Made by a program: the position numbers and the translations under genes. From positions 4,216,001 to 4,280,000 of the forward strand of contig NZ_CP045293.1 in NCBI RefSeq assembly GCF_009363075.1: DNA of 64,000 nt, given 5' to 3'. The stretch comes from Paenibacillus guangzhouensis. Lineage in GTDB: Bacteria; Bacillota; Bacilli; Paenibacillales; Paenibacillaceae. The notes below the pieces were generated by a model. That model saw nothing but the letters and a program-made list of their open reading frames with translations, did no database searches and was not told where the DNA came from. This document shows, in pieces, positions 42,530 to 47,362 of the stretch (its first letter is position 1; each line of letters opens with the position of its first letter).

Positions 42530-43585
42530 TTATTGTCCCCCTCGCTTTAATTTATCAATGGTCTCCCAAATGCCGTTCAAATACGTAGCCCCGAGTGCGC
42601 GATCATATAATCCGTAACCAGGTCGTCCTTGCTCGCCCCAGATCATCCTGCCGTGGTCCGGGCGCAGCGGCCCTGCATAATCGGTATCCCACAGCGCCTC
42701 CAGCACGCGCACCATATCGATGGAACCATCCGATGAACGATGCGACGATTCTTGGAAGGAACGTTGTCCGGTGCGAAGAATATTGCGCGTATGGGCAAAA
42801 TGAATCCTTCCCCGTTCTCCGAAATCGCGGATGATCTCGATGAGATCATTATCGGGATCGGCACCCAGCGAGCCCGAGCAGAAAGTAATGCCGTTCGCAG
42901 GACTGTCGATATGGTCTACCAGCCTGCGCAGCTGTCGTAGATTGCCAACAATGCGCGGCAGCCCGAAGATCGACCATGGTGGATCGTCCGGATGAATCGC
43001 CATTTTCACACCAGCTTCTTCAGCTACAGGAATAACACGTTCCAGAAAATATGCGAGATTCGACCATAAATCATCTTCGCTCATCCCGCGGTACTGCGTA
43101 AGCAGGTGCTGCATGTCTTCTTTCGTATAGCTGGAATCCCAACCGGGCAGCGACAAATCGCCCTGCATCGGGTTCATGCGCTGGATCTGTTCATCTTCGA
43201 AAATGAGCGTTGTCGAGCCATCCGGAAGCGTGTAAGCTAGATCGGAACGTGTCCAATCGAATACCGGCATAAAGTTGTAGCACACCACAGGTATGCCTGC
43301 TTCGCCTAATCGCCGTATGGTTTGACTATAATTTTCAATCAATCGGTCGCGATTCGGCTTTCCGAGTTTAATATCTTCGTGAACCGGGACACTTTCGATG
43401 ACTGCCAGCTTCATGCCATGCGACTCGATTTGAGACTGTAGAGCAGCGATCGCTTCACGCGGCCACACCTCGCCGACAGGCACATCGTATACTGCCGATA
43501 CGATGCCACGAACACCCGGAATTTGCCGAATCTGCGCCAATTTCACGGGATCGTTATCACCGAACCAGCGAAACGTCATTTCCAT
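42530..43585 (-). CDS. uxuA: mannonate dehydratase
   Basis: 351-residue enzyme that dehydrates D-mannonate to 2-keto-3-deoxygluconate. Hallmarks: [21 protein letters not shown] at the N-terminus (in part), [29 protein letters not shown], the metal-site region [41 protein letters not shown] and the C-terminal [14 protein letters not shown]. Length matches the Firmicute form. The ATG at 43585 lies 8 bases after AGAGG. It is the first gene of the hexuronate cluster. Confidence 0.95.
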
Positions 43586-43661
43586 GATCAACACCTCTTT
43601 CTAACCGTCGTTGTATCTTGCTTCATGCACGTTTTCGCTCAATTTCAGTTCATTCAGCCCC

Positions 43662-44081: not shown

Positions 44082-44125
44082 TCACCCACAACAAAGGCCG
44101 TCCTTGAAGGACGGCCCACGGGTTG
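44082..44125 (-). repeat. 44-base direct repeat, copy 1, with terminator-like hairpin
   Basis: Identical to 44303-44346. It contains a perfect palindrome (GGCCGTCCTT with its complement, 44096-44116). On the minus strand the hairpin is followed by TTTGTTGTG, a weak U tract, so it could end a transcript of element A. Confidence 0.85.
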
Positions 44126-44132
44126 CCCCAGC

Positions 44133-44291
44133 TTGGATCATTGAATATACGTAGGAGAGAGGAATCTCTTAAAGGAGCCTATGTTCGCTCTTTGGTAGCC
44201 ATTTTCACCCTTCCATCTCATCATCGAAAATGGCGGACAAGAAGCGACCGGAAAGAGATCCTCGCTCCGTCCCACTTATTCAATGATCCAA
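44133..44291 (-). ncRNA. structured element A of a tandem pair, RNA family not recognised
   Basis: Read on the minus strand it folds as a long rod. P1 is 15 perfect pairs (44277-44291 with 44133-44147). P2 has 15 pairs plus one mismatch and a bulged T (44253-44268 with 44154-44170). P3 is 5 pairs (44243-44247 with 44185-44189). P4 is 9 pairs (44226-44234 with 44198-44206) closed by a 19-base loop. Between P3 and P4 an internal loop carries CTTGTCCG opposite CTACCAAA. Element B has the same architecture with different stem sequences. The strand is inferred from the U-tract after the adjoining hairpin and one G-T pair. Confidence 0.65.
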
Positions 44292-44302
44292 TCCCCCCTG
44301 CC

Positions 44303-44346
44303 TCACCCACAACAAAGGCCGTCCTTGAAGGACGGCCCACGGGTTG
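44303..44346 (-). repeat. 44-base direct repeat, copy 2, with terminator-like hairpin
   Basis: Exact copy of 44082-44125, 221 bases away. On the minus strand it directly follows element B in the same way as copy 1 follows element A. Confidence 0.85.
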
Positions 44347-44531
44347 ACGACATCTCACTCAGCGATCAGCACTTGCAGGTGAGGAGGGGAATCTCCTGGA
44401 AGAGTCTACGTCCGGCATTTGGTAGCCCATTGCATCCTTCCAATCTCATCATAGCAATGGGCGGACAAGAGCCGGCTGGAAGGAGATCCCCTCCCACACC
44501 CTTGTGCAAATCGCCCCGCACGAGATCGTCA
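44345..44531 (-). ncRNA. structured element B of a tandem pair, RNA family not recognised
   Basis: Same plan as element A. P1 is split: 44522-44531 with 44345-44356 and 44504-44514 with 44362-44372. P2 pairs 44482-44497 with 44379-44396, again with a bulged T. P3 pairs 44471-44475 with 44412-44416 (CCGGC/GCCGG in place of TCGCT/AGCGA). P4 pairs 44454-44462 with 44425-44433 (GCCCATTGC in place of GCCATTTTC). The internal loop CTTGTCCG/CTACCAAA is unchanged, and the 20-base terminal loop shares GATGAGAT and GGAAGG with A. It begins 24 bases after the response regulator stop codon. Confidence 0.65.
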
Positions 44532-44555
44532 ACCCCCACCGTCTTCACAGACGGC

Positions 44556-45254
44556 CTACTCCATATTGAACTTATACCCATACCCCCGCACCGTCTGCAG
44601 CATCTTCGGATTACTTGGGTCGAGCTCGATTTTTCGCCGCAAATTGCTCATATGCACCATCACAGTACGTTCATCGCTATCCTTGCCTTGGCCCCAGATC
44701 GTATCGAACAAATGCGAGACGCTGAAGACACGATTCGGATTCTGCAGCAGGTACATGAGCAGTTGACGCTCCTTCACGAACAACGAAACGCTCTTGCCAT
44801 GCACATGGACTTCTTCGGTACGCATATCAATCTCCAAATGCCCGTGCCGCCACAGGCTCTCCTGCTCGTCCATTTCGCGTTTCATCGCCGACCGGCGCAG
44901 CTTCGACTTCACCCGTGCGACCATCACCGTCGGATTGAACGGCTTCGTAATATAATCATTGCCACCCAAATCGAGTCCGTTCACGATATCCTCATTATCC
45001 CGCTTACAGCTGATGAAGATGATCGGAACATCCGACACCATTCGAACCTGATTGCATACGTCCATCCCGCTCATCCCAGGCAGCAAAATATCCAGAAGAA
45101 TCAGATCGGGATGCTCCAGCGTTAACCAACCGAGTCCCTGCTCACCGCTCTCTGCATGAACGACACGATAACCTTCCCGCTCAAGATATAACCCCATCAG
45201 CTCGCCAATTTCTTGATCATCTTCAATGACTAGAATCGTCTGTTCTTGCATCAA
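44556..45254 (-). CDS. OmpR/PhoB family response regulator
   Basis: 232 residues. Receiver domain with the acidic pocket EDD (residues 11-13), phosphoacceptor Asp55 in LILLDILLPGMSG, and the conserved Lys in YITKPFNPTVMVARVK (about 105). The C-terminal winged helix (about 130-230) ends with VMVHMSNLRRKIELDP and TVRGYGYKF. It overlaps the kinase gene by 4 bases, so the two form a cognate pair. The start lies within the end of the kinase gene. The signal and regulon are unknown. Confidence 0.94.
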   Translation of the reverse strand: MMQEQTILVIEDDQEIGELMGLYLEREGYRVVHAESGEQGLGWLTLEHPDLILLDILLPGMSGMDVCNQVRMVSDVPIIFISCKRDNEDIVNGLDLGGNDYITKPFNPTVMVARVKSKLRRSAMKREMDEQESLWRHGHLEIDMRTEEVHVHGKSVSLFVKERQLLMYLLQNPNRVFSVSHLFDTIWGQGKDSDERTVMVHMSNLRRKIELDPSNPKMLQTVRGYGYKFNME

Positions 45255-47362
45255 CCTTCAACCTCCACTCTCTGCCTTACCTGCACCAAGGGGATCGTAA
45301 AATACACGTCACTGCCTTCCCCGAGCATACTGCACATCTGAATCGTCCCTTCATGAGACGCGACAATTTCTTTGCAAATGGATAAGCCGAGCCCTGCGCC
45401 CTTCTTACCTGATCGCTTATTCGCGCTTCCCCGGTAGAATCGGTCGAACAAGTGAGGAATTTCCGCCTCGGACATGCCTCTGCCTGTATCGATAACATGA
45501 ACCGTAAATTCGTTCGTATCGATCTGGGCAAGAATTTGAATTTTCCCGCCGGGCTCCGTATTATTCTTCGCATTGTACAGCAAGTTCGAGACCACTTGTT
45601 CGATTCGAACAGGATCTAGAATGGCTGCGGCCGATTCCTGCTCTGGGTGGTCTCCTTGGATCTCAAATACGTAATCGTATTCGTCCAAATCGAATTTATA
45701 TTTATCGTAGACTTTCCGCACAAAAGGAACAATCAGCGTTTCCCTTCGATCGAATGTAATCTGCCCCGCTTCCAGCTTCGAGAGCTCGAATAAGTCTGCG
45801 ATGAGCCGATCCAAGTATAAGGTTTTCTCGAAAATAATCTTCATCGATTTCGGATCGCCAGGAGGTACGACGCCATCCATCATGGCTTTGACATAGCCTT
45901 GAATCGATGTCATCGGTGTACCTAGCTCATGCGAAATGTTGGACAGCAGATGTCTGCGGGACTGCTCCATTTGACTAAGCGATTTATTCGCTTGCAGCAG
46001 CTCGGCATTCGATTGCTCCAGCTCCAACGTCCTGCGCCGAATTTTGGTTGCGAGCGTCTGGTTCCATTCGCTTAACTCCTCGGATAGCCGCTCCGACTGC
46101 TCGAACGATCTAGAGAATTGATGAGCGAGTAAAATCCCTTGCAGAATAAGACCAATAAACATCCCAAGCGACAAAATATCTGCGAACCCAAACGTCGTCT
46201 TATAATAGAGCAATTCACTTATCACACACGGGACAATAATGAGGATCGTGGCAAGATGCATCTTCGACCCTTGCACGCCTCGTCCAACCGCCATCCCGCT
46301 AAGATACAACCAGTAAATCGTGACCGCGATAAAGACGAACAGGTAGTACGGTAGGGTCTGCGTGAATAGAAGCGCTGGCGTGAACATAACAAGCAAGCCA
46401 AGTGCTACATGAATTCCGATAATAAGGGTTGCAGCCCACCGATTGAGGAACTTCTTAAATTGATTCTGGATATAGCATGTAAAAAAGATAACACCGCCAT
46501 ATGCCGTCAAATATTCAAGTTTAACCGCAAACTCCCACGGCAGCTGTGGAAAGAAAGAGATGAGCAGCGACTGGCCCAGCAGCAGCGTACGCAGTCCGAT
46601 CGCGAGACAAGTCAATCCGAAGAAGAGAGGCGCTTTATTCTTACTGCGCTGCAAATAAAGCAAGATATGGTAGGAGCCGAACACGAGCAGTGTCCCCGCC
46701 AAGAACACCTCGTAAGCAACACTGGCCTCACGACTGCTCATGATCACCTCAGGATCACCGAATTCGATCCGTTCCCAGATCCCCGCCTTTCGCTGCACGA
46801 AGCTCGATACCTGAATCACAAATTCCAACTCGGATTCGTGCGGTTGAAAACTAGCCATCTTCGCATAATTCGCAGGCACCGATGACTTGGTGTTCGGACC
46901 AACTACCCCGTTCTCCAGTACGAGCTCACCATTGACCCACAGCTTGTACGCCGTAGCAACGCCGTGAACGTAGACGGACTTCATCCGTCCGACCTCGGAA
47001 GACGGCAATTGAACAACGAGCCGATAGGTCGCGTAACCTTGATTCGGCAATTTCTCGTTCGCGAGCCGATAATTCGTCCAGGAATCTGGTACCTTGACCC
47101 ACACGGGTTCAGGCAATACCGCCTTATCCTTCCATTGCTGCGGTTCGATCAACGACTGCCAGTAGAAGGCCCATTCGCCGTTCAATGGCAGTACGCGATC
47201 CCTTAGATGCGTCCAATGCTGTATGTTCAATACGCCATTCGACGCTGTAGGCGCCTCTTCTTGTACGGCTGCTAACAAATCCGCCCCATATACGGTTATC
47301 CCGCCGCCGCATATTCCTAATACCATGATCCATATCATGAACCAACTTCGCACCGTACGCAT
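45251..47362 (-). CDS. sensor histidine kinase with 7TMR-DISM sensor region
   Basis: 703 residues. A signal peptide (FMIWIMVLGICGGGITVYG) is followed by an extracellular beta-rich region (about residues 35-210: LNGEWAFYWQSL, VYVHGVATAYKLWVNGELV) and then seven membrane helices (about 215-410), the 7TMR-DISM layout used for sensing small ligands, often carbohydrate-like. After a coiled coil come the HisKA domain with LLSNISHELGTPMTSIQGYV (His near residue 475) and the ATPase domain: NLLYNAKNNTEPGG (N box), VIDTGRGMSEAEI (G1) and KKGAGLGLSICKEIV (G2). All catalytic boxes are intact. Confidence 0.92.
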   Translation of the reverse strand: MRTVRSWFMIWIMVLGICGGGITVYGADLLAAVQEEAPTASNGVLNIQHWTHLRDRVLPLNGEWAFYWQSLIEPQQWKDKAVLPEPVWVKVPDSWTNYRLANEKLPNQGYATYRLVVQLPSSEVGRMKSVYVHGVATAYKLWVNGELVLENGVVGPNTKSSVPANYAKMASFQPHESELEFVIQVSSFVQRKAGIWERIEFGDPEVIMSSREASVAYEVFLAGTLLVFGSYHILLYLQRSKNKAPLFFGLTCLAIGLRTLLLGQSLLISFFPQLPWEFAVKLEYLTAYGGVIFFTCYIQNQFKKFLNRWAATLIIGIHVALGLLVMFTPALLFTQTLPYYLFVFIAVTIYWLYLSGMAVGRGVQGSKMHLATILIIVPCVISELLYYKTTFGFADILSLGMFIGLILQGILLAHQFSRSFEQSERLSEELSEWNQTLATKIRRRTLELEQSNAELLQANKSLSQMEQSRRHLLSNISHELGTPMTSIQGYVKAMMDGVVPPGDPKSMKIIFEKTLYLDRLIADLFELSKLEAGQITFDRRETLIVPFVRKVYDKYKFDLDEYDYVFEIQGDHPEQESAAAILDPVRIEQVVSNLLYNAKNNTEPGGKIQILAQIDTNEFTVHVIDTGRGMSEAEIPHLFDRFYRGSANKRSGKKGAGLGLSICKEIVASHEGTIQMCSMLGEGSDVYFTIPLVQVRQRVEVEG

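Follow-up and report, generated by a model that had tools for sequence, protein, structure and literature searches.

Two rod-shaped units, A and B, sit between uxuA and a response-regulator/histidine-kinase pair in a 64-kb stretch of the Paenibacillus guangzhouensis genome (called the window here, meaning the whole stretch that was analysed). We propose that they are two tandem copies of an interspersed repeat that occurs across the Paenibacillales, derives from a mobile element and is recognised by its structure, its folded form being slightly more probably single-stranded DNA than RNA. We give this reading a probability of about 0.58. One strand, the plus strand in the window, would fold into a rod with fixed loops: a 3x3 internal loop of GNA opposite GNA, a tiny covarying hairpin, fixed TTG/CAA pairs and a helix, P4, that changes freely. 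The features of the locus are as follows.

42530-43594, minus strand: uxuA (UxuA family)
44082-44125, no strand given: 44-base hairpin repeat adjoining unit A, 100% identical to the copy beside unit B
44133-44291, plus strand (the probable folding strand): unit A, one copy of the structured repeat (124 bits with model R1, 88 bits with model R2)
44303-44346, no strand given: 44-base hairpin repeat adjoining unit B; read on the minus strand, the putative terminator of the two-component operon
44341-44535, plus strand: unit B, second copy, in the same orientation as A and with a longer outer stem (141 bits with R1, 109 bits with R2)
44398-44400, plus strand: GGA of the conserved 3x3 GNA/GNA internal loop in unit B, facing 44478-44480 (placed by eye; counts from the family)
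44404-44409, plus strand: GTCTAC, covarying mini-hairpin of unit B, variant with a 2-base loop (placed by eye; covarying alignment columns 100-103)
44425-44433, plus strand: 5' strand of P4 in unit B, a covarying helix, pairing with 44454-44462
44454-44462, plus strand: 3' strand of P4 in unit B, pairing with 44425-44433
44478-44480, plus strand: GGA facing 44398-44400 across the same internal loop in unit B (placed by eye; counts from the family)
44556-47362, minus strand: response-regulator/histidine-kinase pair

R1 is a covariance model made from 29 of 33 units, after dropping two truncated, one chimeric and one near-duplicate unit; R2 is a broader covariance model. Both were built on the minus strand, which is why they report units A and B as minus-strand matches.

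An earlier note on this DNA described two rods with shared helices, constant loops and compensated stems. These are indeed present. Folded alone on the plus strand, unit A has a minimum free energy of -63.4 (z = -6.9) and unit B one of -95.7 (z = -7.7) relative to 200 dinucleotide shuffles. The minus-strand folds, computed on stretches that take in the flanking hairpin, have z values of -4.8 and -7.6 against the same number of shuffles. Not one of the 200 shuffles folds as well in any of these four folds. The boundaries given for unit A hold, while unit B pairs slightly further out than the 44345-44531 first assigned to it. Across ungapped stretches the two units are 75% identical.

The note also saw an identical terminator-like hairpin after each unit on the minus strand. 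The identity is complete, and the T-rich tail of the hairpin does lie on the minus strand. At the same site in a relative, G001, unit B and the hairpin are kept and no unit A can be aligned; the minus-strand tail of the hairpin there is TTTTTT. Hence the simplest interpretation of the sequence is that the hairpin terminates the two-component operon and that unit A is an extra tandem copy. That the hairpins are 100% identical and the units about 75% could reflect faster divergence of the units or later copying of the hairpins.

Covariation between copies is very strong. In 29 copies, aligned without reference to structure, 20 of the 28 pairs show two-sided compensated changes. Paired cells make up 92.4% of the total compared with 74.1% in shuffles, the covariation score is 0.517 compared with 0.192, and none of 500 shuffles reaches either value. 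On four of five covariation measures, both shuffles and slid partners score far lower; the fifth, the number of further pair types, is no higher than in shuffles (42 vs 42.5). In 89 copies aligned to R1, mutual information peaks mostly at the predicted pairs and also reveals the mini-hairpin, whose inner pair is CG in 51 copies, UA in 28, UG in 6, CA in 3 and CU in 1.

The loops stay fixed, as do the TTG/CAA pairs and the CAAAGGCGRACG side. The sequence of the P4 hairpin changes freely between copies, and the outer stems also differ from copy to copy. Two copies lack the P4 hairpin, one of them together with some adjacent bases; these losses resemble slippage across a DNA hairpin, a likeness that is suggestive only. 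The element is thus a nucleic-acid structure under selection, in which the loops are constant and the stems covary. This supports part of the note's claim of a selected RNA structure; as to the strand, wobble at aligned pairs and the loops point to plus.

The repeat is about 160-210 bases long and forms a large family. A blastn search finds matches in five of 59 genomes, the window's own included. In that genome R1 gives 21 matches at E <= 1 and R2 gives 35, 31 of which exceed 69 bits; two congeners have 30 and 30 matches to R2. R1 matches 89 of 148 genomes of the family, spanning 13 of 19 genera. R2 matches 165 of 198 Paenibacillales genomes, which represent 32 of 44 genera and extend beyond the window's own family; it also matches 28 of 39 chosen genomes, leaving 11 without any match. 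In five genomes (G008, G026, G029, G097 and G157) the counts, given here in rising order, are at least 62, 80, 81, 82 and 82 copies when the best 82 candidates per genome are scored, so that their true copy numbers may be higher. In a sample of the phylum, with the best eight candidates per genome scored, R2 matches 7 of 398 genomes, every one of which belongs to the window's own family. Outside Paenibacillus, seven pattern hits (six other records and Sporolactobacillus) lie near chance by R1; L051 obtains no score.

Phage records contain no match to the repeat, and plasmid records give short, weak matches only. One copy lies on a separate 44.7-kb contig of the window's assembly (L144, G000:C2:30100-30244), antisense between two ORFs; no plasmid record matches this copy. 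Among 27 IMG/VR contigs with a pattern hit, 13 hold a true copy (L459, L461, L462, L466-L468, L470, L473, L474, L476 and L479-L481). Nine of these 13 copies are within 1 kb of an end of the contig stretch, as host DNA at provirus borders might give. Within the window's own chromosome (G000:C1), the region from 1.16 to 3.82 Mb has no copy apart from one weak match at 3.81 Mb; the copy-free 1.16-3.80 Mb may be a more variable part of the chromosome.

Copies are mostly intergenic, lie near gene ends in either orientation and avoid divergent gene pairs. Our placement set consists of 231 elements, taken from 249 aligned rows after dropping rows shorter than 130 letters or with duplicate flanks. Genes were called by a simple ORF script, which finds both neighbours for 226 elements and fails to do so for five. 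Overlap with an ORF of 180 or more amino acids is seen in 13 of the 231. For the 226, neighbouring genes are convergent in 67 cases, divergent in 20 and co-directional in 139. The difference between convergent and divergent is significant at p = 4e-7, and within the co-directional set 87 copies have the folding strand in sense and 52 in antisense orientation (p = 0.004); in both tests related genomes are not independent. In the window's own genome, the copies examined adjoin unrelated genes.

Neighbouring copies are arranged in a regular way. All 16 inverted neighbours within 700 bases share one arrangement, with the folding strands pointing apart, and a further 15 pairs have the same orientation. 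In arrays the units are bare tandem copies, 26-54 bases apart, with no cassettes between them. One tandem array holds five copies, one of them without P4 (L133, 4833-5649; G000:C1:6653332-6654148). By eye, its neighbours are peptidase- and acetyltransferase-like, and the loci of two relatives have one copy each at this site.

Signals of transcription around the copies are modest. Promoter-like sites occur upstream of the plus-type strand in 23 of 135 cases, a modest excess over the 15.0 in shuffles, and on the other strand of the same flank in 15 (15.0 in shuffles). Past the 3' end there is no excess of T-runs: 34 of 231 elements have one, compared with 48 for the A-run control. Relative to the folding strand, an adjacent hairpin lies upstream in 22 of 113 copies and downstream in 8 of 113; shuffles have none. 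Among the best matches listed, a replication-strand bias of 44 to 26 in five genomes is confounded with gene direction; a six-genome count of 60 to 38 includes 16 to 12 from the window's genome, which are not valid as that contig does not start at dnaA.

Which strand folds can be asked of imperfect pairs, since a real RNA tolerates G.U but not A.C. Controls from the same genomes behave as expected on their own strand: 30 SAM riboswitches have 103 G.U and 16 A.C, and 29 T-boxes have 103 and 31. For the repeat, pairs aligned by the model on the minus strand show the opposite, 154 A.C to 64 G.U, a ratio of 2.4 (bootstrap 1.9-3.2, 83 clusters). On this strand A.C exceeds G.U in each of the three helix groups and in each of the four gene contexts, and P4 alone has 9 G.U to 47 A.C. 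Hence wobble is apparently tolerated on the plus strand. The count omits one fixed pair, T.G as read on minus and A.C as read on plus. This pair contradicts the plus-strand reading, and with it left in, G.U counts looked strand-neutral.

Alignments not fitted to the model are less clear-cut. In eight overlapping samples of 30, G.U exceeds A.C on both strands (507 to 404 on minus, 431 to 263 on plus). Single-sequence minimum-energy folds show no contrast between strands: G.U makes up 5.5% of minus-strand pairs with the fixed pair omitted and about 5.0-5.3% of plus-strand pairs. If the fixed pair is counted, the minus-strand value becomes about 7.1-7.3%. Because single copies show no contrast, we rate our preferred reading, as well as the narrower idea that the element spreads as folded single-stranded DNA, slightly lower.

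The loops speak to the same question. Read on the plus strand, the 3x3 internal loop has GNA on both sides: its G and A are conserved in most variants, and its middle base varies freely. GGA/GGA accounts for 39 of 128 internal-loop variants, and a minority carry other letters on either side. Sheared G.A pairs are possible in such a loop. The triloops of the mini-hairpin, read on the plus strand, are GNA in 36 of 39, and 37 of 76 mini-hairpin variants have a loop of two bases, a size that RNA hairpins do not normally allow. The plus strand is the more stable in 147 of 231 elements with RNA energies and in 169 of 231 with DNA energies. DNA mini-hairpins that combine a GNA loop with two or more G-C pairs are described as extraordinarily stable in the part of PMC4686876 consulted. 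Judged from aligned-pair wobble and the chemistry of the GNA loops, the plus strand, opposite to the earlier proposal, is probably the one that folds, and single-stranded DNA is slightly favoured over RNA as the folded form.

The repeat both stays in place and moves. Many sites are common to three congeners. In 14 comparisons of shared sites, some of which share a member, there are 56 double Watson-Crick changes where about 5.5 are expected; part of this compensated change could come from the replacement of one copy by another. Such long residence would also fit a cellular function.

At other sites copies come and go. The ilvN-ilvC gap contains a copy in the window's genome and none in G001 or G002. 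The gap measures 315 bases here and 108 in G001, a difference of 207, and the G001 IlvC is 100% identical. An inverted repeat, TATAAATTA / TAATTTATA, lies near the ends of the 207-base difference. Only one of the 30 loci read (from 58 genomes matched) has the element in this gap, which favours gain over loss; two others have a copy downstream of ilvC. At this junction, the one read closely, there is no clear target duplication. Projection of flanks suggests further empty sites, and the six that were aligned are clear only in part. By eye, many of the 30 loci (L414, L418, L424 and others) also have a separate long hairpin with CCCGCT/AGCGGG-like arms before ilvC, perhaps a conserved ilvC leader or processing element. 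The note had set a selected structure against mobile palindromes scattered with no constraint on their loops. Copies are in fact scattered, and their presence differs between relatives, but the loops are strongly constrained.

We found no protein that would mobilise the element; of 40 genomes, 10 encode a Y1 transposase (PF01797). Mobilisation by RAYTs is rejected, because PF01797 is absent from G029, G097 and G157, each of which has at least 62 copies.

No known family accounts for the repeat, in agreement with the note. A run of 4227 Rfam models yields no family at gathering score, either in the window or for the element in 20 loci, and a lax threshold adds 13 weak matches, all below that score. 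Rfam families share covarying structure with the repeat, and none reaches the gathering score. The literature searched, from which subscription journals are mostly missing, contains no description of it. The family is apparently undescribed.

The kind of element is nevertheless familiar. ERIC, bcr1 and Efa-1 are hairpin-forming intergenic repeat families, and bcr1-bcr3 have been called similar to MITEs, according to the excerpts used here (PMC2267715; PMC3446304). Our repeat likewise has copies between genes, a hairpin-forming consensus and presence or absence at an orthologous site. Like ERIC, bcr1-bcr18 of Bacillus cereus, Efa-1 and YPAL (about 100-170 bases), it places many hairpin-forming copies between genes. 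Unlike these families, as far as the excerpts describe them, it combines nearly free stems with fixed loops, ranges across an order and apparently folds on one strand. Integron attC sites are recognised as DNA in a folded, single-stranded state, and unpaired bases and a variable terminal part contribute to the preference for one strand (PMC6393395, in part). The likeness to our repeat would be a single-strand fold with a strand preference, deduced here from sequence; unlike attC, the array units carry no cassettes. REPs and REPINs with RAYTs are similarly high-copy extragenic palindromes with tandem and inverted neighbours. They differ in that REPs measure 20-40 bp (PMC3733652, in part) compared with about 160-210 bases here, and in that the Y1 transposase does not track copy number in our genomes. 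The kind, structured intergenic repeats and folded single-stranded DNA sites, is already known, and this family is apparently new within it.

How could such a repeat be maintained? We suggest that a factor acting in trans would read the folded single strand by its shape and loops and not by its stem sequence, and that this recognition would copy or keep the element. The folded form would slightly more likely be single-stranded DNA, exposed in replication or repair, than RNA. The element would have spread within the order and then resided in place with its structure under selection. Inserted copies would form hairpins in untranslated or intercistronic regions and may affect the neighbouring mRNA. 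A narrower proposal can be put forward only tentatively: an order-wide Gram-positive element, attC- or REP-like but with no known mover, would be recognised and spread as folded single-stranded DNA, and selection would keep its DNA-type motifs, the GNA mini-hairpin and the GNA/GNA internal loop, constant as compensated changes let the stems drift. Spread may instead involve copying through RNA, in a SINE-like manner.

Alternatively, the repeat could be a functional RNA present in many copies. Transcripts of the plus-type strand, acting as small RNAs or within UTRs, would then be bound by a protein that contacts the GNA/GNA loop and the mini-hairpin. We consider this unlikely, yet several findings fit it. 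Covariation and one-strand wobble at aligned pairs are what the riboswitch controls show, sites are common to several species, the plus-type strand is more often sense beside co-directional genes, and promoter-like sites upstream of it modestly exceed those in shuffles. However, 52 of the 139 co-directional copies are antisense, T-runs are not in excess at the 3' end, the ilvN-ilvC site varies in presence, and the frequent 2-base loops of the mini-hairpin are not normal for RNA. It is much less probable that the copies are passive hairpins at 3' ends, serving to terminate transcription or stabilise mRNA, which duplication has amplified and in which only a stable stem is under selection. The 67:20 ratio of convergent to divergent neighbours and the nearness to gene ends would follow, and the B. 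cereus repeat bcr3 is reported to correlate with longer mRNA half-life (PMC3446304, in part). Such hairpins leave the fixed loops, the GNA/GNA loop, the covarying mini-hairpin and the 16:0 inverted arrangement unexplained, and again T-runs are not in excess.

Least probable of all, and hardly credible to us, is what the note preferred: free-standing small RNAs from the minus strand, or else a regulator connected with uxuA or with the two-component system. Both units do lie between the response-regulator gene and uxuA, each is followed on the minus strand by the terminator-like hairpin, and unit B is kept at its site in G001. Yet no unit A aligns there, and wobble at aligned pairs is the wrong way round for the minus strand; together with loop chemistry it favours the plus strand. 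Promoter-like sites upstream of the copies exceed those in shuffles only modestly. Moreover, A and B are just two of 35 matches in the genome, which occur in both orientations, and those examined among the other 33 are beside unrelated genes. We find no support for a role in regulating uxuA or the two-component system. The mobile-derived, structure-recognised repeat is our preferred reading.

Covariation alone shows neither that a structure acts at the level of RNA nor which of its strands folds. The structured element described here is present in tens of copies per genome in most sampled Paenibacillales genomes and is missing from Rfam and from the literature searched. With its loops fixed and its stems free, recognition by shape can be tested directly. 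The strand evidence raises a further question: can a bacterial repeat persist through folding as single-stranded DNA, with no known recombinase?
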